Below are positions 30,778 to 58,152 of a stretch of DNA of 64,000 nucleotides, piece by piece. Position numbers and translations under genes: made by a program. Each line of letters opens with the position of its first letter. The stretch's first letter is position 1. The stretch covers positions 62,001 to 126,000 of the forward strand of contig JABXIG010000004.1 of the NCBI GenBank assembly GCA_013373205.1, in the 5' to 3' direction. This DNA comes from Methylocystaceae bacterium (GTDB lineage: Bacteria; Pseudomonadota; Alphaproteobacteria; Rhodospirillales; Terasakiellaceae). The notes beneath the pieces were generated by a model. It saw only the letters and a list, made by a program, of their open reading frames with translations, ran no database searches and was not told the origin of the DNA.

Positions 30778-30862
30778 GCTTTTTTCAATAAAATTTAAAT
30801 CAGATATTCACAGAAAAAGGATGGAATTATTGCTCTGATAACGTAGAAAAACACTGCCGTGC

Positions 30863-37267: not shown

Positions 37268-37278
37268 ATCAATTCTTC

Positions 37279-38424
37279 TTATGCCTTTGTTAAGTTCATA
37301 AATGACGAAATAACAAATTCCTGTTCTTCATCTGTCAAGTTTGTCGAACATGGCAGGGTCAATATCCTTGACCAGATATCATCCGTCACCGTCATTGTTG
37401 AGCTAAACATATTTTTATAAGGGCGCTGTAGATGCATGGGCTTCCAGAAAGGACGCGCTCCGATTTCGCATGCCCGCAGTGCGGAAATATATTCAGAAAC
37501 ATTTTTCATCGAAATTGAAAGTAGCACACCACTAAACCAGCAAGCACTTTGTGCCCAAGTGGGTTCTGGAAAAGCAGATACACCTTCAATCCCACTAAGA
37601 GCAGCATTATAACGTTGAGCAATACGCCTTTTTGCAGCAACAAAATCATCCAGCAACTCCATCTGCGCGCAACCAACAGCAGCCTGAAGGTTTGTCATCC
37701 GATAATTGAAACCGACAACATCATGATCATAGGCATCACTGACCCGGGCAGTTGTCGTGATATGCTTGATTTTAGCTAACACATCAGGGTCGCGTGCAAT
37801 TACAGAACCGCCGCCCCCTGCCGTAACCGTTTTATTCCCATTAAATGAAAAAACGGCTACATCCGCACCATGTTCTGCCAATTGCCGATTTTTATATGTT
37901 GCCCCCAAAGCAGCGGCCGCATCGGCTATAACCGGAAGATCATAAGCCTTGGCAATTTCGACAATTCTGTCCATATCAGCTGGCAAACCCAATGTATAAA
38001 CCACCACAATAGCAGATACTTTCTGATTGCTTTCGAAATGATACAGATGACCATCGCGTTTTACAGTTTCGCTGGCTAACATTTGTTCCAGTAAATCCGG
38101 ATCAAGGGTCCAACTGTAGGCATCAACATCAATCAACCATGGATCAGCCCCACAGTGACGAACCGCATTAGCACTCGCAATGAACGTATAAGATGGCACA
38201 ATCACCAAATCACCAGGCTGCACACCTAATGCCAATAAAGCAACATGCAATCCGTCAGTTCCCGATGACGTTACAACCGAAGCCTCAGCACCCGTTGCTT
38301 CTGCCACCATCTCTTCCAGTCGATCAACAAAAGGACCAACCGAAGACACGAAATTCATCTCAATACATTCATTGAGATACTTTGCCTCATTTCCGGACAT
38401 ATTTGGGATTGCAAGGGGTATCAT
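37279..38424 (-). CDS. legC: LegC-type sugar aminotransferase
   Basis: A DegT-family PLP enzyme of 381 residues. NFVSSVGPFVDRLE (24-37), the SGTDGLH cofactor segment and Lys198 in FSFNGNKTVTAGGG match LegC, which aminates C4 of the 4-keto-6-deoxy GDP- or UDP-HexNAc made by LegB. It lies 4 bases after legB. Assignment is strong with legB and ptmE beside it. Confidence 0.88.
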   Translation of the reverse strand: MIPLAIPNMSGNEAKYLNECIEMNFVSSVGPFVDRLEEMVAEATGAEASVVTSSGTDGLHVALLALGVQPGDLVIVPSYTFIASANAVRHCGADPWLIDVDAYSWTLDPDLLEQMLASETVKRDGHLYHFESNQKVSAIVVVYTLGLPADMDRIVEIAKAYDLPVIADAAAALGATYKNRQLAEHGADVAVFSFNGNKTVTAGGGGSVIARDPDVLAKIKHITTTARVSDAYDHDVVGFNYRMTNLQAAVGCAQMELLDDFVAAKRRIAQRYNAALSGIEGVSAFPEPTWAQSACWFSGVLLSISMKNVSEYISALRACEIGARPFWKPMHLQRPYKNMFSSTMTVTDDIWSRILTLPCSTNLTDEEQEFVISSFMNLTKA

Positions 38425-38428
38425 TTCA

Positions 38429-39412
38429 TTAAACAGTATATTGGTCGATTTTGAATTTTTCGATATTTTCTTGAACCCACTGGATTGTTAATTCCAATCC
38501 TTGGTCAAGAGAGTGGGACGGTTGCCAATTCATTAGTTCAAACGCTTTACGGTTATCAGAACACAATCTTTCCACCTCGCTGGCTTTCGGGCGCAAACGT
38601 TCTTCATCACATAAAATTTCAACATCGCGACCAATCAATTTAATAATTTTCTGGGCTAGCTCACCAATGGAAATTTCTTTACCAACCCCCAGATTGATCG
38701 TTTCACCAATAACATTATCACACTCAGCCATCTGAATAAATCCATCCGCCGTATCATGAACAAACGTTAAATCACGTGTCGGCACCAAACTTCCCAGTTT
38801 AATCTGATCTTTTTTTAATGCTTGTGAAATAACTGTTGGGATAATCGCTCTGGCAGATTGACGTGGACCATAGGTATTAAACGGACGAATAGTCGACACA
38901 GGCAATTCAAAAGAACGATAAAACGATTCTGCCATCATATCAGCACCAATCTTAGACGCTGAATACGGAGACTGTCCCACCAAAGGATGCTCTTCATTAA
39001 TAGGAACAAATTGTGCGGAGCCATAAACCTCACTTGTCGAGGTATGGATCACGCGCGAAACATTATAATCACGCGCGAGCTGCAACACATTCAATGTCCC
39101 CTGAACATTGATTTGTACATAAGACTGCGGTGAACTATAAGAATATGGGATTGCAATCAGTGCTCCCAAATGGAAGATTACATCCACCCCTTTAACAGTT
39201 TTAGACATACTGTCTCTATCCAGCAAATCGCCCAAAGTGACATCGATATCCTTCAAGTATGGGGAATGGTCCAGCCAATCATTTGACCCGGCACTGTTAT
39301 AAAGTACCAATGCCCGAACATTAGCCCCCTTCTGAATCAGTCTTTCGCATAAGTGGCTACCAATAAAACCACCGCCTCCGGTCACTAATACTGTCTTATT
39401 TGACCAATCCAT
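38429..39412 (-). CDS. legB: LegB-type NAD-dependent 4,6-dehydratase
   Basis: A 327-residue extended SDR with TGGGGFIGSHLCERL (10-24), the LegB-like LYNSAGSNDWLD, STSEVYG and catalytic YSASK. LegB dehydrates the nucleotide-activated GlcNAc at the start of the legionaminic acid pathway. It is 2 bases after ptmE, and the order ptmE-legB-legC is a pathway signature. Confidence 0.9.
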   Translation of the reverse strand: MDWSNKTVLVTGGGGFIGSHLCERLIQKGANVRALVLYNSAGSNDWLDHSPYLKDIDVTLGDLLDRDSMSKTVKGVDVIFHLGALIAIPYSYSSPQSYVQINVQGTLNVLQLARDYNVSRVIHTSTSEVYGSAQFVPINEEHPLVGQSPYSASKIGADMMAESFYRSFELPVSTIRPFNTYGPRQSARAIIPTVISQALKKDQIKLGSLVPTRDLTFVHDTADGFIQMAECDNVIGETINLGVGKEISIGELAQKIIKLIGRDVEILCDEERLRPKASEVERLCSDNRKAFELMNWQPSHSLDQGLELTIQWVQENIEKFKIDQYTV

Positions 39413-39414
39413 CT

Positions 39415-40482
39415 TTACTTTCCTAATTTACTTTTTACGTCTTGTTTCGCAGCTTCAAAGTCTTGTGGACGCCCTATATCTTTCCAATATTCGTACAATG
39501 GAAAACACACTACATTTTTATTATGTTCTATTAGCTTTTCCATAAGTGTCGGCATATCGAAATATTGCCCCTTTGGAATAAAATCAAATGCTTCCGGTGC
39601 CAAAATATAAATTCCAGCATTCACCATCCAACGGCTGATAGGTTTTTCCTGCACACCTTTCACAAAAACACCATCTGTTTCCATGACACCAAAAGGCACA
39701 GTATATTCATAAGGTCGAACCGCAACCGTCATCACAGCGTCATTATCATTATGAAATTTGCCGAACATACGAAAATTTAGTTCCGTAATAATATCCCCAT
39801 TCATCACCAAAACAGGTTGTTGCGGCTTTTCCATTATAGATAAGGCACCTGCAGTGCCTAATGGATTATCTTCACGAACATAATCGATTTCTAGTCCGAA
39901 TTCATGACCGTCCCTAAAATAATTGGCGATCTGATCATGCCGATAGTGTGTCGTAACACTGACTTGTCCAATACCACTTTCACGTAATTGTTCAATAATA
40001 CGTTCCATGATTGGCTTACCACCAATCTCTAACATCGGCTTTGGCGTTTCTTTAGTCAATGGCATCAAACGTTTGCCAAAACCACCAGCCATCAAAACCG
40101 CTGCTAGTTGACTGTCACTCTCGAAGACAAGATCATCCAACAAAATCAGATCAACCACCCGGCCTTGTTCGTCAACAATTGGAATTTGATGCAATCGATA
40201 TTCCGTCATCAAAGACAAGATAAATCCATCTTCCGCACCAATCTGCGCAGAAATGGGAGCTTTTGGCGTCGCATCATCTTTGTTCTTCAGAATTTCTGCG
40301 GCAAAAGTTGTCATCTCTGCACTTTGCATCAAAGCACGACGTACATCACCATCCGTTATGGTGCCGACAATATGCTTTTCCCGATCTACAACAATCACAA
40401 TGCCGACAGCATTTTCATTCAGCAACGTTATAATTTCTGAAAGCTGCGTCTCAGCACAGATTAAAATCTTATCAAGGTTCAT
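39415..40482 (-). CDS. ptmE: PtmE-like CBS-domain nucleotidyltransferase
   Basis: The first 115 or so residues form a CBS pair (GTITDGDVRRAL is typical). The rest is a sugar-1-phosphate nucleotidyltransferase with LMAGGFGKRLMPLTKE. In Campylobacter PtmE is the glucosamine-1-phosphate guanylyltransferase feeding the GDP-sugar route to legionaminic acid. The 355 residues match. It starts the cluster ptmE-legB-legC-cytidylyltransferase, with a 228-base gap upstream that probably carries the promoter. Confidence 0.88.
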   Translation of the reverse strand: MNLDKILICAETQLSEIITLLNENAVGIVIVVDREKHIVGTITDGDVRRALMQSAEMTTFAAEILKNKDDATPKAPISAQIGAEDGFILSLMTEYRLHQIPIVDEQGRVVDLILLDDLVFESDSQLAAVLMAGGFGKRLMPLTKETPKPMLEIGGKPIMERIIEQLRESGIGQVSVTTHYRHDQIANYFRDGHEFGLEIDYVREDNPLGTAGALSIMEKPQQPVLVMNGDIITELNFRMFGKFHNDNDAVMTVAVRPYEYTVPFGVMETDGVFVKGVQEKPISRWMVNAGIYILAPEAFDFIPKGQYFDMPTLMEKLIEHNKNVVCFPLYEYWKDIGRPQDFEAAKQDVKSKLGK

Positions 40483-41747: not shown

Positions 41748-43700
41748 CTATTCTTTAAGCATATTCTCAAGCTTCATTAACATCGTGTCTACCGGATACT
41801 TGTTAGAAGCGAGATAATGACTTTCTCTTATACGAGAGAACTCTTTTGAATCAACACCATCATAACCTTGCAAGATATTAAGTGCCCGCTTTTCTAAATC
41901 TTCATAATTATGTACAAAAACACCTATATTTTCATAATCATAAACATCTGACACATTATGCGTTCGCATCGGTGTCCAATCATGAAATAATACCGGAATA
42001 CCAACAGACATAGCTTCATCACCGAGTGAGGTTTGTCGCCCAATAACTAAGTCTGCCTTAGACACAAGCTTGTAAGAAACATCCATTTCATCATAATTGG
42101 AATTTACCTCAACATTGGACTTTTGTGAGATTTCTGCAAGTGTGTTTTTGAAATAATCTATTTTTGTCCATTCAATATTTTTACCACGAATCACAAAATG
42201 TGCTTCTGGTATCTTATCCGCAAGCCGCAGAATATCCTGATAAAATGCATTATTGGCTTTCCAACAGATCATTGAATTATCACTGTCAGAAAACGGGTCG
42301 GCATCAGAATGGAAATCCAAAACAACCACCAATTTCTTATATGGTTTTCCATTATTAACCTGAATCAAGTCATCCTGAATTCGATATTCACGTAACCTCT
42401 GAGACCGAACCAAGCCGATCGCTACAATATCTTTAATTGAGTGAAATCTATTCTGTTCAATTCTTTTCTTAATTTTCGGCCCGCTCACAAAATAAAGATC
42501 AAATATAGGATGAAAGGATGGATGATACATTTGGATCAAACGTTCCTGCAAAGCAACAACTTTGACTCCATGCGCTTGCAAGGCCATTGAAAGCAAGGAG
42601 GGAAACAAGAAATCATACCCAACTAAAGCGACCTTTGCTTGGAGAAATGAAGCGCCGCCACTCTTATAAAATTTCACAAAAGTGATGTATGAACGCAGCA
42701 TAATCATGATGGCCGTTATTCTGTCTTTTAACCGAGCCACATGTCTTGAATTCTGCCAAAAAATTGATAACGCACTTAAAAGCTGACATAAAGTGCGTTT
42801 ATTCAGCCCCAAACTCATATTCAAAAAGATATGAGGAATAGCCATGTCATTATAATAAATCCTTGAATTGTCGAGCAGGTCGTCAGACACTTCTACATGC
42901 ATGATATTCTGCTGATGAAAAGGACTATCAGCATCTTCGCAATAATAATGATCTTTATAAAACAAGTTACCATAAACAACCCCACGATGAGGAAAATACA
43001 GTACCTTTTGCGAAGCCTTTGTCACCTCTTCTACCGGTTTTTGGTTATCGGTCCGAATGTTTTGCTGTTTAAACAGAGAGATACATTTACCAAAAAGACG
43101 GCGTCCAAACTTCCAACCCATTGCAAAGACAGACTGAATCTTCAAAAAGAAACAGGGATAATAATTGATAAAACCTGAAATATCTTTGGAAAGAATATAA
43201 CTTTGAACACTATTGGCTGGATAAAATGCACATACAGAATATCCTTGCTTTTTTAACTTAAGGCCAACTGTAAGAAATTCCCCAAAACCAAGAGCATGTC
43301 CAACAATCTGTTCATATAAAACGATTTTAATCTTTTCTTGGGAATCACTTACCTCTTTAAAAATATCTGGCAAATCATCGAATAATACATCTGTAAATAA
43401 TCTGTCAAATAACTTTTCCGCATAAACGGGTGCATTGATAGCATAGCCATAAGGCATAGATCCTTCACCATCACAAAAATGGAACTTGTTGACGCCCCAT
43501 TTTTTCAAAGCGTTTTCATATTTTTCACTGCTTTTATAATGTTCACGCAATGCATCTGGAAAAAACATATAAACCACATGAAAACCTGCCAACGATAACA
43601 GCTTTAAAATTGGCAAATACCAAAGAGATAGTTTTTCAACCAAGATAAGCTTGCCTCGACAAGTTAATCTTGGTTTTTCTTCAGGAGACCCATAATCCAT
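41748..43700 (-). CDS. Unassigned 650-residue polysaccharide-locus protein
   Basis: I cannot name a family securely. There is no signal peptide; the hydrophobic runs near residues 30-45 are short. The last third has a GT-B look: LVVVLDFHSDADPFSD, then ADLVIGRQTSLGDEAMSVG and VLFHDW, where a transferase would bind its donor. It might be a glycosyltransferase or a phosphotransferase relative. Composition is very A/T-rich. A 285-base gap with a hairpin lies upstream. Confidence 0.55.
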   Translation of the reverse strand: MDYGSPEEKPRLTCRGKLILVEKLSLWYLPILKLLSLAGFHVVYMFFPDALREHYKSSEKYENALKKWGVNKFHFCDGEGSMPYGYAINAPVYAEKLFDRLFTDVLFDDLPDIFKEVSDSQEKIKIVLYEQIVGHALGFGEFLTVGLKLKKQGYSVCAFYPANSVQSYILSKDISGFINYYPCFFLKIQSVFAMGWKFGRRLFGKCISLFKQQNIRTDNQKPVEEVTKASQKVLYFPHRGVVYGNLFYKDHYYCEDADSPFHQQNIMHVEVSDDLLDNSRIYYNDMAIPHIFLNMSLGLNKRTLCQLLSALSIFWQNSRHVARLKDRITAIMIMLRSYITFVKFYKSGGASFLQAKVALVGYDFLFPSLLSMALQAHGVKVVALQERLIQMYHPSFHPIFDLYFVSGPKIKKRIEQNRFHSIKDIVAIGLVRSQRLREYRIQDDLIQVNNGKPYKKLVVVLDFHSDADPFSDSDNSMICWKANNAFYQDILRLADKIPEAHFVIRGKNIEWTKIDYFKNTLAEISQKSNVEVNSNYDEMDVSYKLVSKADLVIGRQTSLGDEAMSVGIPVLFHDWTPMRTHNVSDVYDYENIGVFVHNYEDLEKRALNILQGYDGVDSKEFSRIRESHYLASNKYPVDTMLMKLENMLKE

Positions 43701-46547: not shown

Positions 46548-47594
46548 TCAGGTTTTTTTGATCATTGACCAATCAATCACTTTATCTTCTTCAATTCGAC
46601 ATGTGACTGCGGATCCAACTACAAGATCGATATATTTAGGTTCAATACCATCCACAACTTTTTTGAAAATCAGGTCTTCTTCCCGAATTGTGTCACCAAC
46701 ATTTAATTCCCGCGCCGCAACCAAAAAACGACGAAATGCTTGGCGTACGTTTTCCTCACAAGGCATAATACGTTTTACCCCATCACCTAGGGCTTTATAT
46801 GCATTTTTTAGCGCAACACAATAATGCTTCATTTCCTCTGGGTTCAAAGAGGCTTGATGGTCTGGCCCCCCCATATCTTTATCCAGCGTCAGATGTTTTT
46901 CGAAGATTCGTGCCCCCATTGCCACAGCCGCACACGCCACTTCCACGCCTTTGGTATGATCAGAAAAACCAATAGGATAGCCAAACATATCTTTTAGGCT
47001 GCTAATGACGCGCAGGTTCATATCCTCTTCTGGCGCAGGATAGGATGAAACACAATGTAAAATGATTAATTGATTGTTCGTTTTCGCCATAGCTTCTACA
47101 CCAAGGGCAAGTTCAGAAATTGTACTGGCCCCAGTCGAAAAGATAATTGGCAAACCGAATTCCGCTAATTTTGCAAGAAACGGCGTATTGGTTACATCCT
47201 GCGAAGCTGTTTTATAAAGATCAACCCCAAGCTCTTTTAAAAAACACGCACTACCCAGCTCATCAGGGGTGGAGAAAAACATAATACCTTTCTCTTCACA
47301 ATAAGCTTTAATCTGGCGAAACTGATCAAAAGATAATTCCAGCTTTTTAACCGTGTCAAATTCCGATTCATTTATATCGGTCGCACGTTTTTGATAATCT
47401 GGCTTCAAAGATTGTTCTTTACTGTATACCTTTTCAGTAATCCAAGTTTGAAACTTAACAGCATCACAGCCTGCCATGACTGCCGCATCAACAAGATCAA
47501 ACGCCGTTTGCAAGTCACCATTATGGTTCACACCTGCTTCAGCAATAATAAATAAATCTGATTCAGATTTCTCGATTAATTCCTTGTAGTTCAT
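46548..47594 (-). CDS. neuB: N-acetylneuraminate synthase family, LegI-type, with SAF domain
   Basis: Condenses phosphoenolpyruvate with a six-carbon amino sugar to give a nonulosonic acid. The TIM-barrel domain has IIAEAGVNHNGD and DAVKFQTW, with FSDHTKG later. The C-terminal SAF/antifreeze-like domain is present (RFLVAARELNVGDTI onwards). ATG 47594 gives 348 residues; a TTG six codons earlier would overlap the upstream gene. It most likely serves the legionaminic route. Confidence 0.9.
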   Translation of the reverse strand: MNYKELIEKSESDLFIIAEAGVNHNGDLQTAFDLVDAAVMAGCDAVKFQTWITEKVYSKEQSLKPDYQKRATDINESEFDTVKKLELSFDQFRQIKAYCEEKGIMFFSTPDELGSACFLKELGVDLYKTASQDVTNTPFLAKLAEFGLPIIFSTGASTISELALGVEAMAKTNNQLIILHCVSSYPAPEEDMNLRVISSLKDMFGYPIGFSDHTKGVEVACAAVAMGARIFEKHLTLDKDMGGPDHQASLNPEEMKHYCVALKNAYKALGDGVKRIMPCEENVRQAFRRFLVAARELNVGDTIREEDLIFKKVVDGIEPKYIDLVVGSAVTCRIEEDKVIDWSMIKKT

Positions 47595-47601
47595 AACGTG
47601 C

Positions 47602-48726
47602 TTAAGCCTCAAACGAATTCATTATATTAATCATATATTTCATTTTTTCTTTCGATATAAATTCACTCACTGGGATCAAAACATGATCCGCAATGAAATC
47701 CTTTTCAAAAGAATAACGTGACTGCTCATTCTCAGGGCGGAAATCCCATTTATCTTCCAATGTTGACAGCAAAATGCCTTCTTGGAACATAAAATCTAAA
47801 AACTTCTGCCTTTCTATATTCTTTACTCTAGCAGGTAAACCAAACGGCACATTTTTTTCTGAAAATTCTGTATGCAACAACGTCACAAACCGAGACTGAA
47901 GATTTTCATGAACCATTTTGCTATTTGCAAGACGTTGTTCTATCAATGCACCATATGGAAAAATACTTTCTATTTGACGCGATTGATCACTTTGAACATG
48001 CACGTCTATCTGGGTATTGATAAAATGATAATAAGCCTCATACCAATCTGACAGATGCTGCAAATGTATTTTCGCCTCTGTCATAGATTTACTTTCATAT
48101 AAATCACGACACGCTTTCAAATGCTTTTCAAAAGCATTTAAAGCCTGTGTTGGTAAGGGTGGGTAGTCTGTTTCTGTAAGCGATACATCAATATCGTCAT
48201 AGCATGAAACAAGTAAAGCGCCATCTCCCACAGGAATGATCTTATTAAACGAATAGAGTGCCAAATCAGCTTGTTCAGCCAAATAACGCCCATCATCGTC
48301 TTTTACAAATGGGGCATGTGCAAAATCTTCTAGAATATAAGCATTTTCACCTGACAAAATGGACCTCAAACTAGGTGTCCATCCGCTATATCCAAAATAA
48401 TGTATCAAAACAAATAAAGTCGGCCCGTTATGTTGAGAAAGTATTTTTCCCACATCAGAAACATCCGGTGTCAATTGCTCTGTCAACTTGTAGAACTGAA
48501 CCTCTACGTTTGCCTGAAGAAAAGGTTTCAATACCCCTTCTGCAACATAGCACGGCATTAAGACAGTGGTTTTTTCTGCATCTGGTAAACGTGAAATTAA
48601 ATGCCAAAGTGCAGATCGTCCTGTGGCCAACCGTGCAGAAGATGTATCTCCTTGAGGAACTGGTAATTCACAATCATCTGCCTGCAAATTATTGAAATCA
48701 GTATATTTTCTCAATAAAGTAATCAT
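47602..48726 (-). CDS. Divergent DegT-family PLP aminotransferase
   Basis: A 374-residue protein with DegT features but weak overall resemblance. LATGRSALWHLI stands for the cofactor segment, EDFAHAPFV for the Asp strand, and the likely Schiff-base Lys lies in YSFNKIIPVGDG. There the loop before Lys is two residues shorter than in LegC, but the Lys-to-Gly spacing is the same. It overlaps neuC by 4 bases (ATGA) and precedes neuB. It is placed to act on the same pathway; the substrate is unknown. Confidence 0.7.
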   Translation of the reverse strand: MITLLRKYTDFNNLQADDCELPVPQGDTSSARLATGRSALWHLISRLPDAEKTTVLMPCYVAEGVLKPFLQANVEVQFYKLTEQLTPDVSDVGKILSQHNGPTLFVLIHYFGYSGWTPSLRSILSGENAYILEDFAHAPFVKDDDGRYLAEQADLALYSFNKIIPVGDGALLVSCYDDIDVSLTETDYPPLPTQALNAFEKHLKACRDLYESKSMTEAKIHLQHLSDWYEAYYHFINTQIDVHVQSDQSRQIESIFPYGALIEQRLANSKMVHENLQSRFVTLLHTEFSEKNVPFGLPARVKNIERQKFLDFMFQEGILLSTLEDKWDFRPENEQSRYSFEKDFIADHVLIPVSEFISKEKMKYMINIMNSFEA

Positions 48727-49898
48727 TGCGTTGGCACGTCATAAAAGTGCTTCATCACCAAATGATCATAATTTTCTATTTTTGCTATTTCCTGCATCAT
48801 GAGTTGCGCACAATCACCCTGTTTATAGGGATTGAGAACCTCTTGTTTACCAAACTCAAGTGCTGCCATTATGGCCTTATAGATATCACCAGTTTCTGCC
48901 TGACAATTAAAAACAGACCTTGCGCGCAACCGGCCTTCTTGGCGATTGCCTATATTAACTGTTGGAATTTTAAAAGAAGGTGCCTCATAGAGACCACTTG
49001 AAGAGTTACCGATCACTACATCCATATGCTTTAAGCAACCCCAATATCGCTCCTGCCCGAGTGAACTAAACACATGAACATTGGAACGGGTTTGCGCATA
49101 ACGATTAAGCAACTCTATGATCGCTCGTCCACCTGTATCAGCATTTGGCAAAGTAATTATAATTTCATCATGCTGATCCAAAAGATCCAACGCCTTCAAA
49201 AGTTCATTAAGCTGATCTTCAGACGATACATTATTCAATGTAACAGGATGAAAAGTTACAAGAAAATTTCGTTTTCCAAATTCAAAGCCAAGTTTTGTAG
49301 CAAGATCATCTTTACCAATAATTTCAGCTCTTTTTATGAAATCTAGACCAGGACTCCCAACATTAAAAATGTGGGTAGGGTCTTCACCCATATACTGCAG
49401 CCTTTTCACCGCTTCTTCATTCGTGGCAAAATGTAAATGGGACATCTTGCTTATACTGTGACGCATTGCCTCATCAAACGCGCCGACCGTCACGTCACCT
49501 CCACCAATGTGCCCAACAGGAATTTTTAGAAACAAAGCAGCTTGTGCCGCAGCAAAAATTTCAAACCGATCGCCCAGAAGCATAATCAAGTCCGGTTGCA
49601 AATTTTGAAAAGCATCGGCGAAACCAATAACCCCTAACCCAGTTGATTTTGCAATACCAACCGCATGATCTGACGACAATAAGGTTTCAACTCTCGCTGA
49701 AATTTCAAAACCATCCTCTTCAATCTTTTCCACCGTCATACCAAATTCGGGGGACAGGTGCATGCCGGTTACAACCAGTTGAAGATCAAATGCCGGATGT
49801 CTTTCAACTTCTACCATAAAATAATATAACAAGCCGTAATCTGCTCGACTACCTGTTACTACACAAATTTTACGTTTTTTATCAAGTGATTGAACCAT
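48723..49898 (-). CDS. neuC: Hydrolysing nucleotide-sugar 2-epimerase, NeuC/LegG family
   Basis: A GT-B-like 2-epimerase of 391 residues: VVTGSRADYGLLYYFM, LLGDRFEIFAAA, GHIGGGD and GNSSSGLYEAP. It removes the nucleotide and inverts C2 to give the free sugar used by the NeuB/LegI synthase. In a locus with legB and legC it probably works on the GDP- or UDP-diacetamido sugar as LegG. The family call is firm. Confidence 0.9.
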   Translation of the reverse strand: MVQSLDKKRKICVVTGSRADYGLLYYFMVEVERHPAFDLQLVVTGMHLSPEFGMTVEKIEEDGFEISARVETLLSSDHAVGIAKSTGLGVIGFADAFQNLQPDLIMLLGDRFEIFAAAQAALFLKIPVGHIGGGDVTVGAFDEAMRHSISKMSHLHFATNEEAVKRLQYMGEDPTHIFNVGSPGLDFIKRAEIIGKDDLATKLGFEFGKRNFLVTFHPVTLNNVSSEDQLNELLKALDLLDQHDEIIITLPNADTGGRAIIELLNRYAQTRSNVHVFSSLGQERYWGCLKHMDVVIGNSSSGLYEAPSFKIPTVNIGNRQEGRLRARSVFNCQAETGDIYKAIMAALEFGKQEVLNPYKQGDCAQLMMQEIAKIENYDHLVMKHFYDVPTQ

Positions 49899-49931: not shown

Positions 49932-50786
49932 TTACCAAGCCGAACGGCCACCATCCATGACAATATTCTGACCATTCATATAGCGCGATGCACGAGAGCA
50001 TAAAAATTGAACGGCCGCACGATATTCATCTCGTTCCGCCATTCGCCCCATTGGAATGAGGTCCGTCAATTTTTGCACAAAATCATCATTTTGCCCATTA
50101 AACACCCCCCCAGGAGACAGCGCATTTGAACGCACCCCCTGATCGGCCCAATATGTCGCAATATAACGCGTCAAGCCAACAAGGCCTGTCTTGATGACTG
50201 AATAAGTAACCGGTTTTACTGGTTGCTGATGTAAGGGTAATCCATCTTTTTCATATAATCGCTGGTCCGGCGCAAAAACAGATAAATCCGATGCAATATT
50301 TAAAATGACACCGTCTTTTTCATTTGCCGCCATTTTAGCACCAAAAACCTGCGTACATAAAAAAGCACCGGTTAAACCAACTGCAATCTGCATATCCCAT
50401 TGATCCTGCGGAAAATGTTCCAGCCGAGACGTTTCTTCAAGTCCTTGATCAGCGCGCACTTTAGGGTCAATAGCAGCATTATTAACCAAAATATCAACAT
50501 GCTGATTTTTTTCATCTAATTGATCCGCAACTTTTTGGATCGAAGATAAATCTGCAACATCCATTACATATGTGGATATTAAGGATTTGTCAAAATCTTG
50601 ACCTAAAACATCTTTTGCCTGCTTCAATGATTCAGCATATTTATCCGTTAAAATAACCCCGCAACCACTTTCTAATAAGGCAGCACTATGTTCGCGCCCT
50701 AATAAACCAGCAGCGCCCGTAATTAAAGCACAAGAACCTGTCAGATCAAATTTTTCATTAGCGCAAGTCATTTTTATGTCTTTCAT
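49932..50786 (-). CDS. SDR, PtmA-like
   Basis: A classical SDR of 284 residues: LITGAAGLLGREH (20-32), NNAAIDP and catalytic YSVIK. The leading GSCALITGAAGLLG and the LYEKDGLP insert resemble PtmA, an oxidoreductase in Campylobacter legionaminic-type flagellin loci. It is the last gene of the compact ulosonic module. Substrate not known. Confidence 0.82.
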   Translation of the reverse strand: MKDIKMTCANEKFDLTGSCALITGAAGLLGREHSAALLESGCGVILTDKYAESLKQAKDVLGQDFDKSLISTYVMDVADLSSIQKVADQLDEKNQHVDILVNNAAIDPKVRADQGLEETSRLEHFPQDQWDMQIAVGLTGAFLCTQVFGAKMAANEKDGVILNIASDLSVFAPDQRLYEKDGLPLHQQPVKPVTYSVIKTGLVGLTRYIATYWADQGVRSNALSPGGVFNGQNDDFVQKLTDLIPMGRMAERDEYRAAVQFLCSRASRYMNGQNIVMDGGRSAW

Positions 50787-50791
50787 AACTA

Positions 50792-51550
50792 TTATGAACG
50801 TGTCTGGCCACCATCAAGCGTCCAGACTTGGCCCGTTGCAAATGAAGCTTTAGAGGAAGCCAAGAATGCAACAAGTTCTGCGACCTCGTTTGGATCACCT
50901 AAACGTTTCAATGCCACATTTTCAGCTAACATTGCTTCAACGGCTTCTGAGTTTTCTGCCATTTTACGTGCCCAAACAGAGGTTTCAAATAAAACATTAC
51001 CAACAGCAATAGCATTGATCCGAATACCGTCTGCACCCAACGGCCGTGAAATTGCACTGACATAAGCATTTAATGCCGCCTTTGCAGCACTATAGGTCAC
51101 AGGCGCTCCAGGGATCGTTTCAACGCCACAAATTGAAGAAATACAGACAATGGTAGGCACATCCGACATAGCCAACAAAGGCGATGCGGCTTCAACCATA
51201 TTTGTTGTGCTCCAAAAATTGACATCAAAAACTCTACGCCATTCATCGTAGGTTTCCTGCCCTGGCGGCACGGAAGAACCGCTGCCCACGTTGCACACCA
51301 AAATATCCAACTGGCCAATATTTTTCTGGACTCTCTTTAAAATCGCTTTTGCCTGATGTGGATCACAGACATCCCCCGCGAACGCTTCTGCCTGATCAAG
51401 ACTAGCTGCAACATTCTGGCACATTTTTTCAGAGCGAGAGTTAATAATAACCTGACAGCCTTGCGCGCTTAATTTGTTTGCAATCGCCAAACCAATTCCT
51501 TTTGTAGAACCAGTCACCAACGCAACTTTTCCCCTCAGGTCAGGCGCCAT
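50792..51550 (-). CDS. SDR family oxidoreductase
   Basis: A 252-residue classical SDR with TGSTKGIGLAIA (14-25), CNVGSGS in place of the usual NNAG, Ser of SSICGVE and catalytic YSAAK, and the typical C-terminal DGGQTRS. It overlaps the epimerase gene upstream by 11 bases and lies 5 bases from the PtmA-like gene. Probably oxidises or reduces a sugar intermediate of the module. Confidence 0.84.
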   Translation of the reverse strand: MAPDLRGKVALVTGSTKGIGLAIANKLSAQGCQVIINSRSEKMCQNVAASLDQAEAFAGDVCDPHQAKAILKRVQKNIGQLDILVCNVGSGSSVPPGQETYDEWRRVFDVNFWSTTNMVEAASPLLAMSDVPTIVCISSICGVETIPGAPVTYSAAKAALNAYVSAISRPLGADGIRINAIAVGNVLFETSVWARKMAENSEAVEAMLAENVALKRLGDPNEVAELVAFLASSKASFATGQVWTLDGGQTRS

Positions 51551-52385
51551 TTTCGCTAATCCAGCTTGCTGTCATATCCCTAAATTTTTGCAAAATACCG
51601 AGATGATCCTCATCCTGAGCCCGTGCTGTTTGCAAAATATAATTCCCTTGATATCCAACCTCGGATAAACATGCAAAAACTGCGTCGAAATCAGCATTTC
51701 CCGTTCCGAGCGCAACCGTTGTTCCACCTAGAACTCTGTCTTTGATATGAACATTGACAATTCGTTCACCATAGGCGGTAATTTCTTCTGTCGGATCAAA
51801 CCCCAGTGCAGCACTATTGCCCGTATCATAATTAACACCAAATACATCGGCATCCAGACGCGCAATAAAGCGGGCAAGTTCAGCAGGTGCAAAGTCAGAT
51901 TCAAAGATCACTTTAAGTTTCTTTGCTTTAAAGAAATCCATTTCGCCTTGCAAAAACGTGACCAGAGCATCTTCTTGCGCCTTATTTTCCACACTGCCAT
52001 TGTCAACCAAGGGCACGACAATCATTGTGATACCAATAGAGGCACAAGCCTCTGAAATAGCAAGAAAATCACCTTTTAGACTTTCCTGCTCAGCGCCCTG
52101 TGCCTTCCAAAAAGGAGATTGCATAAAGCAATCCCCTGTCAAAGATGGAATGGTAAAGTCATGTGCGCGCATTAATGTACAGATTTCTTGCTGGTCTTGC
52201 GGACGCATAAGCGGATTATCGTAAAGCCTATTTTGATCCAGCGTCCATTCCATCATTTTCAGATCAATACTGCTCGCCTCAGAAATTTCCTGACGCCAGT
52301 TATCCCAAGGGAAACTCTGAATTAATCCATCGACGATCGGTGACAAACGCCCCTGCATAAAACCAATACGTTGCTGCGCGGACAT
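51540..52385 (-). CDS. Sugar-phosphate isomerase/epimerase, xylose-isomerase-like TIM barrel
   Basis: The 281 residues have RIGFMQGRLSP at the start, VIFESDF, VNYDTGNSAALG and NVHIKDR, which supply the metal-binding Glu, Asp and His expected in this family. Members interconvert ketose or ketose-phosphate epimers. It is 5 bases after the NeuB-like gene. It may shape the aldose or ketose that enters the synthase reaction. Substrate unknown. Confidence 0.82.
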   Translation of the reverse strand: MSAQQRIGFMQGRLSPIVDGLIQSFPWDNWRQEISEASSIDLKMMEWTLDQNRLYDNPLMRPQDQQEICTLMRAHDFTIPSLTGDCFMQSPFWKAQGAEQESLKGDFLAISEACASIGITMIVVPLVDNGSVENKAQEDALVTFLQGEMDFFKAKKLKVIFESDFAPAELARFIARLDADVFGVNYDTGNSAALGFDPTEEITAYGERIVNVHIKDRVLGGTTVALGTGNADFDAVFACLSEVGYQGNYILQTARAQDEDHLGILQKFRDMTASWISENGA

Positions 52386-52390
52386 ATCAA

Positions 52391-53230
52391 TTAACCTGCC
52401 ACGTCCAAACGCAGCTTTTCACGAACAGATTGTTCAGCCTCAGTAATGTCTTTACGGCCTGTCCCCAAAATAGCAGGTACTTCACGCAGAACATCGACAA
52501 ACTTTTTCAACGCGTGTACTTCGACAGAAGCCGCTTGGTCTGAGCCATACATCGCACGGTTCAAAGTAATATGACGTTCAATAACGCTCGCCCCCAAAAC
52601 GGCTGCCGGAAGACAAACAGCAATCAAAGAGGTCTCATGCCCAGAATATCCGACATTGCAGCCATAGCGATCTCGTAACATTGGAATGCAGTTCAGATTA
52701 GCATTCTCAACTTCCATCGGATAAGTGCTGTTACAATGCATCAGTTCAAAAGGACAATTCGCTGCTTTAAACAGCTCCACAACCTCATCAATTTCTTCGA
52801 TCGTCGCCATACCTGTTGAAATGTATGTTTTTCGACCTTCTGAAGCAATTTCCTTCAACAAAGGCTTGTGACCTAACATGGCAGAAGCAACTTTATTAAA
52901 CGGTAAATTAAACTTTTGCAGGAATTTTTGCGCAGGGACGTCCCATGCAGAAGCGGACCAGTCGATGCCCAGTTCTTTACAATAAGCATCAATTTCTTCG
53001 TATTCTGCTTGGCCAAATTCTAAGCCACGCTTTTGCTCACCTTGTGTTGTGCCCCATGGGCTTTCACGAGGGCTATCGAGGAACTCCTGAGTATACACTT
53101 CTTCAATTGTGCGTTTCTGGAATTTAACCGCATCAAAACCAGAATCTGACGCTGCCTTAATCAATTCTTTTGCTATTTTCATGTCGCCATTATGGTTAAT
53201 GCCGATTTCAGCAATTAGATATAAGCTCAT
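52391..53230 (-). CDS. NeuB-family synthase lacking the SAF domain
   Basis: A 279-residue NeuB barrel: IAEIGINHNGD (6-16), DAVKFQKR, GTTQGEQKRGLEFG, ASAWDVPAQKF and YSGHETSL. It stops after the barrel, so the C-terminal SAF domain of LegI and NeuB is missing. Relatives with this form and a KdsC-like phosphatase beside them use phosphorylated sugars, as in KDN-9-phosphate synthesis. It is the core of a second ulosonic pathway here, acting on a phosphosugar plus phosphoenolpyruvate. Confidence 0.86.
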   Translation of the reverse strand: MSLYLIAEIGINHNGDMKIAKELIKAASDSGFDAVKFQKRTIEEVYTQEFLDSPRESPWGTTQGEQKRGLEFGQAEYEEIDAYCKELGIDWSASAWDVPAQKFLQKFNLPFNKVASAMLGHKPLLKEIASEGRKTYISTGMATIEEIDEVVELFKAANCPFELMHCNSTYPMEVENANLNCIPMLRDRYGCNVGYSGHETSLIAVCLPAAVLGASVIERHITLNRAMYGSDQAASVEVHALKKFVDVLREVPAILGTGRKDITEAEQSVREKLRLDVAG

Positions 53231-53765
53231 CGAGTTCCCTATCTGTCATTGTGTTTATACGAAGCAATTTTTCAACAAATGCACGAACAAAGCCTTCGCC
53301 ACCACGTTCATGCAAAACCAAATCCGCAATTTCTAAAATTTTATCATGCGCATCTGATGGGGCCACACCATAACTAGCTTTGCGCATCAATGGCAAGTCA
53401 TTTAAGTCATTTCCAATATAGATAAAACCTTCCCAATGGTCCGCTTGAGACAGCTTCTTATTTTTAAGGTAGTTATCCATAAAATCTAATTTATTGTCGG
53501 TCGCGTTCTGGCAGATAATTTTTAATTTCTTTGCACGCTGTTGCACGACAGCATTCGTTTCTTTCGAAAGAATCATTATGTCTTTCGTCAGTTTTCCCTG
53601 TTTTTGAAAATAGCGCACAAAGTCGAAAGCAAGACCATCGCCGCGATCACAACGTACACTTTCAGATCCATCTTCCTTTACCCAAACTTTGTTATCAGTA
53701 AAGATCCCATCAAAATCAAAAGCAATGGTATGAATGCTGGCCAGTTCGGGCAACGGTTTACTCAA
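53208..53765 (-). CDS. KdsC-like HAD phosphatase
   Basis: A single-domain HAD protein of 185 residues. Asp17 and Asp19 of FDFDGIFTDNKV are the nucleophile and acid, and IYIGNDLNDLPLM holds the metal-binding Asp residues, as in Kdo-8-phosphate and KDN-9-phosphate phosphatases. I place the start at TTG 53765 because GGGAG lies 7 bases upstream; a TTG six codons earlier has no ribosome site. It overlaps the synthase gene by 23 bases and gmhA by 8. It should dephosphorylate the product of the NeuB-like enzyme. Confidence 0.85.
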   Translation of the reverse strand: MSKPLPELASIHTIAFDFDGIFTDNKVWVKEDGSESVRCDRGDGLAFDFVRYFQKQGKLTKDIMILSKETNAVVQQRAKKLKIICQNATDNKLDFMDNYLKNKKLSQADHWEGFIYIGNDLNDLPLMRKASYGVAPSDAHDKILEIADLVLHERGGEGFVRAFVEKLLRINTMTDRELDELISNC

Positions 53766-54348
53766 AACCCAGCTCCCGTTCAATCAGTTCACAGAACATA
53801 TGACCAATAAAGATGTGAGCTTCCTGAATACGTGCTGTTGTATTTGACGGAATTGTCAGTTCATGGGTTGCAAGATCCTTTATACTGCCCCCACCTTTAC
53901 CTAATAAGGCGATACTGATAATGCCCAGCTCATTCGCTGCCTTGACAGCGCGCAAGACATTCTCGCTATTGCCAGATGTAGAAATTGCGATCAAAATATC
54001 GCCTTCACGACCCACGGCTTTCACCTGACGATTAAAAATCTCGTCATAACCGTAATCATTCCCAATACAGGTTAAAACCGATGTGTCCGTTGTTAATGCA
54101 ACTGAACGCAAAGGCTCGCGGTTATTTTTAAAACGGCCAACAAGCTCGGCAGCTAGGTGTTGACTATCAGAAGCGCTGCCACCATTGCCACACCACATTA
54201 TCATTTTGTCATTTTTCAGAGCTTGAGCCATCAAAGAAGCCAATTCAGCAATTTTTTCTGACATTTCTTCTTTTACACGGACCATAACGTCTTGATGTTC
54301 ATCAAAGTGGTCATGCAGAACTTTTAAGGAATTCATTTGATTATCCAT
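53758..54348 (-). CDS. gmhA: Phosphoheptose isomerase, SIS domain, GmhA-type
   Basis: The 196-residue SIS protein has CGNGGSASDSQHLAAELVGR, TTDTSVLTCIGNDYG, ISTSGNSENV and ARIQEAHIFIGH, all GmhA signatures. GmhA isomerises sedoheptulose 7-phosphate to D-glycero-D-manno-heptose 7-phosphate. Starts at ATG 54348 or 54336 are both possible; the latter has GGA 7 bases upstream. No heptose kinase, phosphatase GmhB or ADP/GDP transferase for heptose is close, so its product may feed the NeuB-like synthase instead. Confidence 0.86.
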   Translation of the reverse strand: MDNQMNSLKVLHDHFDEHQDVMVRVKEEMSEKIAELASLMAQALKNDKMIMWCGNGGSASDSQHLAAELVGRFKNNREPLRSVALTTDTSVLTCIGNDYGYDEIFNRQVKAVGREGDILIAISTSGNSENVLRAVKAANELGIISIALLGKGGGSIKDLATHELTIPSNTTARIQEAHIFIGHMFCELIERELGFE

Positions 54349-54373
54349 ATAATTGATATCGTATTTACGTTGG

Positions 54374-55144
54374 TTACAGTCCTTTGATTGACCACCCGCC
54401 ATCAACAAACAATTCCTGTCCGGTCATGTATGCAGAAGCTTGTGAGGCCAAAAAAACACAGGTTCCAACAATGTCTATTGGGTCTCCCCATCTGGGCAGC
54501 ACCATATGGGAAAGCCGATCTTTGTACAAACTAGGATCATTGTAGCTTTTTTCCGTCATCGCTGTATGAATATACCCAGGTGCAATTGTATTTACACGGA
54601 TGTTATCCACACCATAATCCACTGCTAAAGCACGGCTAAGAGCACTAATCCCACCTTTTGAGGCAACATACCCCGGATTTCCAGGAAAACCGAGCTGGCT
54701 ATTAATGCTGGATATATTGATAATCGAACCTTGAGCCGTCTTTTTCATGTAGGGTATAGCCAACATACATGCTGAGTATGCACCCTGCAAATTCACCTGA
54801 ACAGTTTGATTAAATCGATCAGTTTCACTACCTTCTGATGATGGTGGCAAACTTATCCCAGCAGCATTTACTAAAATATCAATACGCCCGTACTTATCAA
54901 AGGCTTGCTGCATCACAGCTTGCAATCCAGACTCATCTGTCACATCACAAACCTGATAATGAACACGACCTTCATCACTTCTTTGAGGTATATGGGAACG
55001 TCCAAGACGAATAACCGTTGCCCCATATTCAGCAAGACCAAATGCCAGTGCCTCACCAACACCACGAGAGGCTCCCGTGACAATAGCGACCTTACCTTTT
55101 AAAGAAAATAAATCCGGTGCACCTGTATTATTTGTCAAGACCAT
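54374..55144 (-). CDS. SDR family oxidoreductase (third in the module)
   Basis: A 256-residue classical SDR: TGASRGVGEAL, NAAGISLPP, Ser in SSINSQLG, catalytic YVASK and a C-terminal DGGWSIKGL. It resembles gluconate 5-dehydrogenase and FabG-like enzymes. It overlaps the cytidylyltransferase gene by 17 bases. Role in the pathway unassigned. Confidence 0.84.
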   Translation of the reverse strand: MVLTNNTGAPDLFSLKGKVAIVTGASRGVGEALAFGLAEYGATVIRLGRSHIPQRSDEGRVHYQVCDVTDESGLQAVMQQAFDKYGRIDILVNAAGISLPPSSEGSETDRFNQTVQVNLQGAYSACMLAIPYMKKTAQGSIINISSINSQLGFPGNPGYVASKGGISALSRALAVDYGVDNIRVNTIAPGYIHTAMTEKSYNDPSLYKDRLSHMVLPRWGDPIDIVGTCVFLASQASAYMTGQELFVDGGWSIKGL

Positions 55145-55820
55145 GCCCTCTCATCAATGACTGGCAAATTTCAATATCACCCAGATCATCAATTTGTTGG
55201 CCTTTATATTTTTCCATCGCATAAGTCCCGATCTTGCCACTAAGTCGATTATTAAAATGGCGAATATCTTCCGGTCTAAACAGATAAAAAGAACCATTTT
55301 CCAGATATTTTTGCATCATATCCTGCCGACGCTGACGCGATCTATAATCGTAACTATCGGATTGCAACGAACCTTGTGATGTCTCACTCCATACCAAATA
55401 ATCTTCAATTTTAATCGAAGAAAATAAGCTATCCCAATTATTCTTCATCAATGCATCGTATGCATTATCAAAATCATGCGCTTCACGAATAGGGGATGTG
55501 GCCTGTAATCCAAAGGCCCAAGTGACCTCCCCTTCATTTTCTTCAATGACGTCTAAAGCATGGATCCAGGCCGACTCAGACGTTGCTGTATCATGTGAAA
55601 TATCATCAGGACGTTTAATCGTTTTCGCCCCTGCATTTTTAGAGACTTCCAAAATTTCATCGCTATCAGACGAAACCCAAACCGATTCAATACACGTCGC
55701 AGCCAAAGCCTGACGAATACTCCATTCAAGTAACGGACGTCCGCATACAGAAATTAAATTTTTCCCCGGTATACCTTTAGAGCCCCCTCGAGCTGGAATA
55801 ACCGCGACCACCTTACCCAT
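55128..55820 (-). CDS. CMP-ulosonate cytidylyltransferase (acylneuraminate type)
   Basis: A 230-residue cytidylyltransferase with PARGGSKGIPGKN, SSDSDEILEV and LQATSPIREAHDF. It would activate the ulosonic acid made by the NeuB-like and KdsC-like pair. Its place at the upstream end of the module, overlapping the SDR gene, links it to that pathway rather than to legBC. Confidence 0.87.
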   Translation of the reverse strand: MGKVVAVIPARGGSKGIPGKNLISVCGRPLLEWSIRQALAATCIESVWVSSDSDEILEVSKNAGAKTIKRPDDISHDTATSESAWIHALDVIEENEGEVTWAFGLQATSPIREAHDFDNAYDALMKNNWDSLFSSIKIEDYLVWSETSQGSLQSDSYDYRSRQRRQDMMQKYLENGSFYLFRPEDIRHFNNRLSGKIGTYAMEKYKGQQIDDLGDIEICQSLMRGHGLDK

Positions 55821-56913: not shown

Positions 56914-58152
56914 TTAAACAGCACTATTTTCAAGCGCCGTGCAAGTTAAAACAGCCTCATGCACTGCATCAAAAAATGAATGTTCACTCATCCCATTCAA
57001 AGTAATATACTCTTCTATATAACTTTCATAGAGATCTCGATCCACTGCCAGATTTTCAAAATCGATATTTTCTAACTCTCCGGGCTTATCAATATGAATA
57101 ACCTTCTGACCAACTGAATGGGCAACTGCACTCGTATAACTATATATCGGTGTCTTTTGCGGGTCACACTGTTCCGCCGTTATCACAAAAATACTCGGTA
57201 AATACGACAAGACATTATAACAAAATGAAGTACTATTATGCAGAATTGACAATTTACTTTTAAGAACAAGTTCGGCTGTACGGTGTTTAATGATCTGACG
57301 ATCACCAAAAGGCTTTGCATAATTTTGATAGGTTGACCGGGGATGATCTGCCACAATCACTTCAAGACCTGTTTTTTGTTCAACAATGTCAAACAACCGT
57401 CTCATTGATGAAAAAAATCTATCAATATCGATGGGAGACTCTGCATCGCCTTCCAACTGTTTTTTATGGTCTGTATTCATATAACCACCTAAATAAACAC
57501 AATAGTTTTCTTTTGGGTAGCCTTTTTTTACTTCCTTCATAAACAAGTCAAAATCAGGCGTATGCCCTGCAATAATTGGAACCTGAATAGGGCCAATTAC
57601 CTGTTCAACATCACGACATTCTTGCTTACATAACAATGTAAATGCATCTGGAATATTGATAAAGCGCGTTTCAATATTCATAGACCGCAACATCCTATTT
57701 TTGATCTTATTATAAACTTTCCTTGGTGATAACAATTTCTTGATGAAACGGTATTTATTCGCATACCACGGCAAACCAGACAAACTAGGCCCATCTGGGA
57801 AAAAGCCCGCGGGATTTGCATAAACAAATTTTGTATTCATTTGTTTTAAAGCTGAAAAAAATGGCTCAAACTCAATTGAAAAATCAACACGGTTTTGTAG
57901 CAGCACTTTTCCGCCACTTATCTTAGCAATCTTATTTTTAAACCCTTCGATATCGTCCACTTTATAAATGTAATCTTCATTCACAAGGTCTGGAAGCATT
58001 TGTTTTTTGCCCCGTGACGCAGGATGGGCAATATAAGTAAAATCTAATACAAGAACATCGAACCCATTATTAAGCCATTCCTGAACGTTATACCTGCGAA
58101 AATCTCTTTCCATAAACGGGAAAGTAACAGCGATTAAAATCGTTTTCTTCAT
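56914..58152 (-). CDS. Unassigned 412-residue polysaccharide-locus protein
   Basis: I cannot assign a family. There is no signal peptide. Segments ENYCVYLGGYMN, VIVADHPRSTYQ and SILHNSTSFCYNVLSYLPS in the second half look like the donor domain of GT-B-type surface carbohydrate proteins. Placed between two ribbon-methyltransferase genes it may transfer the methylated terminal sugar. Confidence in the gene is high, in the role low. Confidence 0.55.
   Translation of the reverse strand: MKKTILIAVTFPFMERDFRRYNVQEWLNNGFDVLVLDFTYIAHPASRGKKQMLPDLVNEDYIYKVDDIEGFKNKIAKISGGKVLLQNRVDFSIEFEPFFSALKQMNTKFVYANPAGFFPDGPSLSGLPWYANKYRFIKKLLSPRKVYNKIKNRMLRSMNIETRFINIPDAFTLLCKQECRDVEQVIGPIQVPIIAGHTPDFDLFMKEVKKGYPKENYCVYLGGYMNTDHKKQLEGDAESPIDIDRFFSSMRRLFDIVEQKTGLEVIVADHPRSTYQNYAKPFGDRQIIKHRTAELVLKSKLSILHNSTSFCYNVLSYLPSIFVITAEQCDPQKTPIYSYTSAVAHSVGQKVIHIDKPGELENIDFENLAVDRDLYESYIEEYITLNGMSEHSFFDAVHEAVLTCTALENSAV

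Follow-up and report, generated by a model that had tools for sequence, protein, structure and literature searches.

A recurrent operon that joins a SAF-less NeuB-type synthase to a GmhA-type isomerase, and a possible ten-carbon ulosonic acid as its product

Which acidic sugar would be made by an operon in which a NeuB-type synthase without a SAF domain stands beside a KdsC-like phosphatase and a GmhA-type isomerase? The question is raised by a stretch of 64,000 nucleotides from a Methylocystaceae bacterium (GenBank assembly GCA_013373205.1, contig JABXIG010000004.1, positions 62,001 to 126,000 of the forward strand; this whole stretch is called the window below), in which eight closely packed genes, all on the minus strand, run from position 55820 to 49932. 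We consider it very probable that these genes are dedicated to the synthesis of a single CMP-activated ulosonic acid, that this synthesis passes through phosphorylated intermediates, and that the GmhA-type isomerase catalyses one of its steps. That the product is a ten-carbon (C10) ulosonic acid derived from heptose 7-phosphate is a more tentative proposal, to which we would give just short of an even chance. In the order of transcription the genes encode:

55128..55820, minus strand: NeuA-type CMP-ulosonate cytidylyltransferase, the first gene, 230 residues (Pfam CTP_transf_3, 6.8e-24; PseF model matched below its cut-off)
54374..55144, minus strand: SDR3, a short-chain dehydrogenase (SDR), 256 residues (Pfam adh_short_C2, 1.1e-57)
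53758..54408, minus strand, probable true start ATG 54348: GmhA-type SIS sugar-phosphate isomerase (Pfam SIS_2, 2.5e-31; TIGR00441 200.3 bits, cut-off 209.45)
53208..53783, minus strand, possible start TTG 53765: KdsC/KDN9P-type HAD phosphatase (KDN-9-PPhBT 78 bits and KdsC 69.3 bits, both below cut-off; similar PDB chains are of the KdsC and KDN9P-phosphatase kind)
52391..53230, minus strand: SAF-less NeuB-type synthase of the K39-R40 clade, 279 residues (Pfam NeuB, 3.7e-67, no SAF)
51540..52385, minus strand: xylose-isomerase-like TIM-barrel isomerase/epimerase, 281 residues (Pfam AP_endonuc_2, 8.6e-21)
50792..51550, minus strand: SDR2, a short-chain dehydrogenase, 252 residues (Pfam adh_short_C2, 4e-52)
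49932..50786, minus strand: SDR1, a short-chain dehydrogenase, 284 residues (Pfam adh_short_C2, 1.8e-38)

A first-pass annotation of this DNA had already described eight same-strand, packed genes, as we find them, but named only seven, the eighth being the TIM-barrel protein. Its overlaps of 11 bases (51540-51550), 23 bases (53208-53230) and 17 bases (55128-55144) are exact; its fourth, of 8 bases between the isomerase and phosphatase genes, appears only if the latter starts at TTG 53765, the longest phosphatase frame giving 26 bases instead. The longest frames of the isomerase and SDR3 overlap by 35 bases, and not at all if the isomerase begins at ATG 54348. The phosphatase had been placed with those acting on the 8-phosphate of 3-deoxy-D-manno-octulosonic acid (Kdo) or the 9-phosphate of the nine-carbon keto-deoxy-nonulosonic acid (KDN), and it does match both models, at scores under their cut-offs. 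The synthase had been said to end at its barrel, and indeed Pfam finds NeuB alone in it, compared with NeuB plus SAF in the full LegI-type synthase (354 residues) that begins at 46548.

How this synthase relates to its SAF-bearing relatives was examined in a one-genome-per-species scan (89 confirmed relatives, 80 kept), supplemented by plasmid and phage records and by genomes of the same class. Clade members were picked by their similarity to the window's synthase and come from many phyla; the 92 labelled loci become 90 once L103 and L104, duplicates of L022 and L024, are dropped. The clade proteins measure 270-306 residues in 96 aligned sequences, as against 330-362 residues in 27 SAF-type sequences. 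By Pfam, SAF is present in 17 of the 18 control synthases scanned (control L135 of the 19 being left out), while within the clade the window's protein was scanned and the remaining ones were judged by length. Lys39-Arg40 occurs in all 88 distinct clade sequences and in none of 25 SAF-type ones, identical sequences having been removed; in an AlphaFold2 model of the window's synthase (mean pLDDT 94, pTM 0.90) these basic residues are found where the barrel strand with the invariant K36 ends. Further marks of the clade, rare among SAF-types, are P58, G60, K67, W91, W96, SGHE (SDHT in SAF-types) and GSDQ (mostly GPDH in SAF-types); R55 is common in the clade, yet it is also present in 7 of the 27 SAF-type sequences. 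Residues K113, H198, E218 and H220, for which we assume the roles of phosphoenolpyruvate (PEP) lysine and metal residues by reference to NeuB of N. meningitidis, are found in all sequences of both kinds (96/96 in the clade). Judged by its barrel and these conserved residues, the window's synthase is a member of the NeuB superfamily and not a SAF-type NeuB/NulO enzyme, and the SAF-less proteins are, on the alignments, a distinct clade. Loss of SAF through truncation of a LegI-type gene was rejected, the whole clade being short and having residues of its own. The nearest PDB sequence, the Leptospira sialic acid synthetase 6NCS, is similarly short (290 residues), but it reads AYN where the window's synthase reads KRT and so is without K39-R40. 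By analogy, K39-R40-T41 might be the counterpart of 'NRTS' in the KdsA that this genome encodes, a motif with which KdsA binds the sugar phosphate. The accessible parts of PMC6650799 and PMC3052366 do not settle this correspondence.

The genes found around such synthases speak for a route of their own. Within 9 kb of the synthase, GmhA was present at 40/90 SAF-less loci versus 0/19 SAF-type control loci, the HAD phosphatase at 46/90 versus 0/19 and the TIM-barrel protein at 43/90 versus 0/19, whereas NeuC showed the opposite trend (5/90 versus 9/19); SDR1 lay near 50 of the 90. When only loci with full 8-kb flanks are counted, GmhA accompanies 24 of 51 SAF-less and none of 13 SAF-type synthases. 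The exact eight-family set on one strand is found again at 2 of the 92 labelled loci, L072 from SAR116 and L078 from Prochlorococcus, and in a Rhizobiaceae metagenome-assembled genome (L020) the order GmhA-HAD-NeuB-TIM-SDR2-SDR1 is retained. Single open reading frames at the 92 loci fuse HAD to GmhA in eight cases (confirmed by Pfam in both of the frames scanned), NeuA to HAD in five and NeuA, HAD and NeuB in one, a Nonomuraea locus. Since fusions of this kind usually join steps of one pathway, the HAD+GmhA proteins argue that GmhA belongs to the same pathway as the phosphatase. The isomerase, earlier regarded as the odd member of the operon, thus turns out to be a recurrent partner of the synthase, and the suggestion of a route through a phosphorylated intermediate gains support from the counts for the phosphatase and NeuC and from the basic residues specific to the clade.

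Is the isomerase, then, a working GmhA with a role apart from the lipopolysaccharide (LPS) core? The PDB chain nearest to the window's copy is 1tk9 (2.8e-56). In the accessible text of PMC5387315 the catalytic residues of the N. gonorrhoeae enzyme are His61, Glu65, Gln175 and His183. The four zinc/catalytic residues are kept in 37 of 40 NeuB-adjacent GmhAs, the window's included, and by eye also in that of L072. The same contig holds a second gmhA (C56:173415) at a distance of about 57 kb, which immediately precedes an hldE with scores above its curated cut-offs; this gmhA too scores below the TIGR00441 cut-off (198.4-200.2 bits). With this separate copy at hand, the LPS-core assignment of the window's GmhA, which the first-pass annotation had named as part of what would refute its proposal, was rejected. 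In a tree of 68 GmhA sequences (L087, L054 and L072 left out; the 28 'other' sequences include the genome's second gmhA three times), the NeuB-adjacent label needs 6 changes compared with a mean of 22.3 on shuffling, none of 500 shuffles being as low, and the second gmhA falls in a supported same-class clade (100/99) that excludes the operon copy. On this tree the NeuB-adjacent GmhAs are largely separate from the rest without being one clade: L073 groups with six copies that are not NeuB-adjacent, and a few more of that kind lie among the NeuB-adjacent ones. A strong hldE match (above 150 bits) was seen at 1/40 NeuB-GmhA loci, that of Prochlorococcus (L078), versus 10/25 other GmhA loci, the latter with 1.5-kb flanks only. 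Eight of ten Bacillota loci have a neighbouring GmhA, and most Bacillota have no LPS.

The pathway that we propose would begin with GmhA converting sedoheptulose 7-phosphate into D-glycero-D-manno-heptose 7-phosphate. Next, PEP would be joined by the SAF-less NeuB to C1 of the heptose 7-phosphate to give a 3-deoxy-dec-2-ulosonate 10-phosphate of ten carbons, from which the KdsC-like HAD enzyme would remove the phosphate. SDR1, SDR2, SDR3 and the TIM-barrel protein would oxidise, isomerise or epimerise, and reduce one carbon of the chain, and NeuA would make the CMP-sugar for a surface polysaccharide. All of the substrates and the C10 size are our inference, as is where on the chain and in what order the SDR and TIM-barrel enzymes act. 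Heptose 7-phosphate is mannose 6-phosphate plus one CHOH, and NeuB, LegI and KDN synthases accept manno-configured substrates; the C10 reading is the simplest one in view of this resemblance between the usual product of GmhA and the manno-configured acceptors of known synthases.

The genes assigned to the middle of this scheme are conserved in their own right. A tree of the short-chain dehydrogenases resolves SDR1, SDR2 and SDR3 as distinct conserved families: the SDR2 sequences form one clade, the SDR1 sequences are grouped, and 13 of 15 SDR3 sequences, the window's included, make up one set (SH-aLRT support 98); SDR1 is the most widespread of the three. In the TIM-barrel protein E162, D187 and H213 are invariant in 44/44 sequences, with Q252 in 35. 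At the 27 loci that combine the TIM-barrel protein, SDR1 and SDR2, a class III/IV aminotransferase is present in 18 and SDR3 in 6, both in none and neither in 3, an exclusion with p = 0.0003, uncorrected for relatedness. Outside this set SDR3 does occur together with aminotransferases (L029, L037, L055 and L106), so the swap is not absolute. The SDR, TIM-barrel and aminotransferase enzymes probably share one keto intermediate, which would receive an amino group in some clusters and be reduced in that of the window.

The logic of such a pathway is already known from Kdo and KDN synthesis, and the operon is a variant of it. As described in the accessible text of PMC6200933, KDN synthesis in Bacteroides thetaiotaomicron and Prymnesium parvum involves a Kdn-9-P synthase, a Kdn-9-P phosphatase and a CMP-Kdn synthetase; the operon shares with it PEP and a sugar phosphate as substrates, a HAD phosphatase and CMP activation, by enzymes of the same superfamilies, but GmhA, TIM-barrel and SDR genes are not named for it in that text. 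The Kdo pathway (KdsD-KdsA-KdsC-KdsB) likewise runs through a SIS isomerase, a PEP aldolase, a KdsC phosphatase and a CMP-transferase, and differs in having KdsA rather than NeuB, KdsD rather than a GmhA-like protein and KdsB rather than a PseF/NeuA-like one (the operon's CMP-transferase scores 122.1 bits with PseF, cut-off 205.7, and 27.8 bits with kdsB, cut-off 155.2). With legionaminic and neuraminic acid synthesis the operon has the NeuB barrel and NeuA in common; the SAF synthase and UDP-GlcNAc epimerase of that route lie outside the eight genes, which include a phosphatase and GmhA instead. The ADP-heptose pathway (GmhA-HldE-GmhB-HldD) shares GmhA as its first step, but hldE above 150 bits was not found at 39/40 NeuB-GmhA loci, and there the heptose phosphate is apparently taken by NeuB. 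A phosphoheptose isomerase adjoining a sugar phosphatase appears in a SAR11 hypervariable region in the accessible part of PMC2217521, without interpretation there. Among the papers listed from the open-access literature (PMC) none is shown to assign this gene set, and no paper there holds any of six spellings of a name for a ten-carbon ulosonic acid, a scope that includes few of the subscription papers and none of the bioRxiv preprints; this agrees with the earlier remark that no pathway with this exact set was described, and the set recurs in other genomes. The pairing of a SAF-less NeuB of the K39-R40 clade with a GmhA that is dedicated to it, and at some loci part of a fusion protein, was likewise not seen among the papers listed.

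Several observations weigh against the C10 proposal and should be set out together. GmhA is missing within 9 kb at 50 of the 90 loci, many of them incomplete, and at 27 of the 51 with full 8-kb flanks; the control loci all come from the window genome's own phylum and are not phylum-matched to the cases. We searched 43 genomes that have the synthase and no adjacent GmhA (L022, L024 and L105-L108 being covered through G194, G287, G378, G300, G160 and G207, and L012-L017 not included): a GmhA match lies elsewhere in 31, and in 12 there is none anywhere at E<=1e-20. One of these 12, G207, is 99% complete on a single contig, its synthase being 43% identical and its locus having no labelled HAD. This leaves two readings: part of the clade works with a different acceptor or source, or C10 products are confined to the GmhA-bearing subtype, to which the window belongs. 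As background, 24/58 same-class genomes have a GmhA match at 1e-25, a stricter limit that is unmatched to the 31/43. Two NeuB-adjacent GmhAs (L054 and L087) are truly without some of the catalytic residues, the former being the degenerate half of one of the eight HAD+GmhA fusions, and the window's own GmhA falls short of its curated cut-off. So does its phosphatase with the NCBIfam models, KDN9P-phosphatase NF058599 (78 bits, cut-off 180) and KdsC (69.3 bits, cut-off 106.95). Comparison of the window's NeuB with 25 KdsA proteins by HHalign gave no usable alignment. An hldE-like gene lies about 8 kb away at the Prochlorococcus locus L078, and weak hldE matches of 72-98 bits occur at L048, L077 and L081. 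Among 269 unlabelled neighbours, the 103 beside GmhA-bearing loci were scanned with Pfam, giving two matches each to mannose-6-phosphate isomerase, CTP_transf_like and the heptosyltransferase family.

These points bear unequally on the other readings of the operon. Were the synthase to use mannose 6-phosphate, it would form KDN 9-phosphate, with nine carbons, for the HAD enzyme to dephosphorylate and NeuA to activate, and the GmhA-like protein would be a fructose-6-phosphate/mannose-6-phosphate isomerase or have a side role. This would account for the loci free of GmhA and the genomes that show none, for the KDN9P phosphatase as the top NCBIfam phosphatase model, albeit below cut-off, and for the isomerase domain in 2/103 neighbours. 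The synthase, phosphatase and CMP-transferase also match exactly the KDN enzyme set in the accessible text of PMC6200933, where the P. parvum synthase used mannose 6-phosphate as sole substrate among seven sugars, heptose 7-phosphate not being one of them. However, GmhA recurs beside the synthase, shares an open frame with the phosphatase at some loci, mostly keeps its catalytic residues and is best matched by GmhA models, and the KDN9P-phosphatase cut-off was passed by none of the 398 own-phylum genomes sampled, 186 of which have matches to the family. We therefore regard a KDN-type product as rather unlikely. An argument for the C10 reading from the genome's own mannose 6-phosphate supply was dropped, since the only PF01050 match (GMP_PMI, type II; G000:C1, about 4 kb, L234) comes from a stretch whose G+C content is 68.4%, compared with 44-47% in four others, and the contig is probably a contaminant; type I isomerases were not searched. 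Dropping it slightly lowered our estimate for the C10 reading and for its wider form, and slightly raised that for KDN.

An eight-carbon, Kdo-like product would be expected if the SIS protein were an arabinose-5-phosphate (KdsD-like) or other pentose-phosphate isomerase and the synthase gave the 8-phosphate of a Kdo isomer, and the layout of isomerase, PEP aldolase, KdsC phosphatase and CMP-transferase does parallel KdsD-KdsA-KdsC-KdsB. Yet the SIS protein matches GmhA models, and Pfam finds in it no CBS domain, which KdsD carries; the known cases of NeuB-type enzymes use, to our knowledge, six-carbon acceptors. The genome moreover has its own KdsA (C59:902038) and a kdsC that passes its cut-off (C59:465279), by which the window's HAD as the LPS kdsC was ruled out and extra copies in the operon would be unneeded for Kdo. 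All this makes a Kdo-like product improbable. Polysaccharides containing heptose being common, GmhA might finally feed ADP- or GDP-heptose into the same polysaccharide and merely share its operon with a KDN-like set. The hldE-like gene near L078 with the weak matches at three more loci, and the CTP_transf_like and heptosyltransferase neighbours (2/103 each), are what such a branch would lead one to look for. A strong hldE match at only 1/40 loci argues against it, as do the HAD+GmhA fusions, which link GmhA to the KdsC-like phosphatase, and the absence of kinases from the 25 Pfam families most often matched by the 103 neighbours within 4.5 kb (60 rarer families fall outside that list). We consider a separate heptose branch about as improbable as a Kdo-like product.

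If the C10 proposal holds for the window, how far might it extend? SAR11, SAR116, Prochlorococcus and Lachnospiraceae all have members of the synthase clade, and so do many viral contigs. Among 600 stretches listed from IMG/VR, at least 582 hold confirmed synthase relatives; of the 80 viral loci kept (L235-L314), many have NeuA, class III aminotransferase, VOC, SDR or TIM-barrel matches, and GmhA stands beside the synthase in only 6, which again tells against a general C10 product. Two phage records (L016 and L017) also carry a relative. On a plasmid of Azospirillum thermophilum (L012) an IS21 element separates the synthase and HAD from the SDR and TIM-barrel genes, and the HAD makes up the C-terminal portion of a 361-residue protein, the first half of which resembles NeuA by eye. 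A subtype of 12 loci (L028, L031, L040, L044, L050, L058, L060, L062, L079, L082, L083 and L094) carries an enzyme dependent on thiamine diphosphate (ThDP), with a HAD+GmhA fusion in 4, RfbF and/or RfbG in 6 and, within the stretch examined, no NeuA match in 11; here the keto acid is possibly joined to a CDP-sugar through ThDP chemistry. We would give somewhat less than an even chance to the wider proposition that a C10 (deculosonic) class of sialic-acid-like sugars exists in at least eight named bacterial phyla, made from heptose 7-phosphate by K39-R40 NeuB enzymes and varied by swappable modules (SDR3, class III aminotransferase with VOC, class IV aminotransferase, Gfo/Idh), with synthase relatives common in environmental viral contigs and a NeuA-less sub-branch that may hand its keto acid to a ThDP enzyme acting on a CDP-sugar.

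The operon had been taken for the second ulosonic-acid module of the window, and a separate legionaminic-acid set is indeed present, at 36581-40482 and 46548-49898. It consists of a CMP-transferase, LegC-like, LegB-like and PtmE-like CBS-nucleotidyltransferase proteins, LegI and NeuC; LegB (467.4 bits, cut-off 475) and LegC (415.4 bits, cut-off 420) are slightly short of their curated cut-offs. The two members nearest to the operon are:

46548..47612, minus strand: SAF-containing LegI-type synthase, 354 residues (Pfam NeuB and SAF)
48723..49898, minus strand: NeuC/LegG UDP-GlcNAc 2-epimerase (TIGR03568, 463 bits, above cut-off)

Between NeuC and LegI, at 47602-48726, lies a DegT-like protein with a weak Pfam match (1.7e-5). 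A third CMP-transferase-like gene adjoins a HisC-like aminotransferase at 29686-31612, outside both ulosonic modules. Two proteins near the modules, of 650 residues (41748-43700) and 412 residues (56914-58152), are matched by neither Pfam at 1e-5 nor NCBIfam at 1e-10 and are candidates for surface-glycan transferases or assembly proteins.

The way in which these genes are read has consequences beyond the window. Public records call synthases of this clade 'N-acetylneuraminate synthase', and genomes that carry them may in this way be misread as those of sialic-acid makers, contrary to the gene context. If heptose 7-phosphate is indeed the acceptor, the operon and its relatives would represent a size class of acidic surface sugars that is overlooked by standard sialic-acid analysis.

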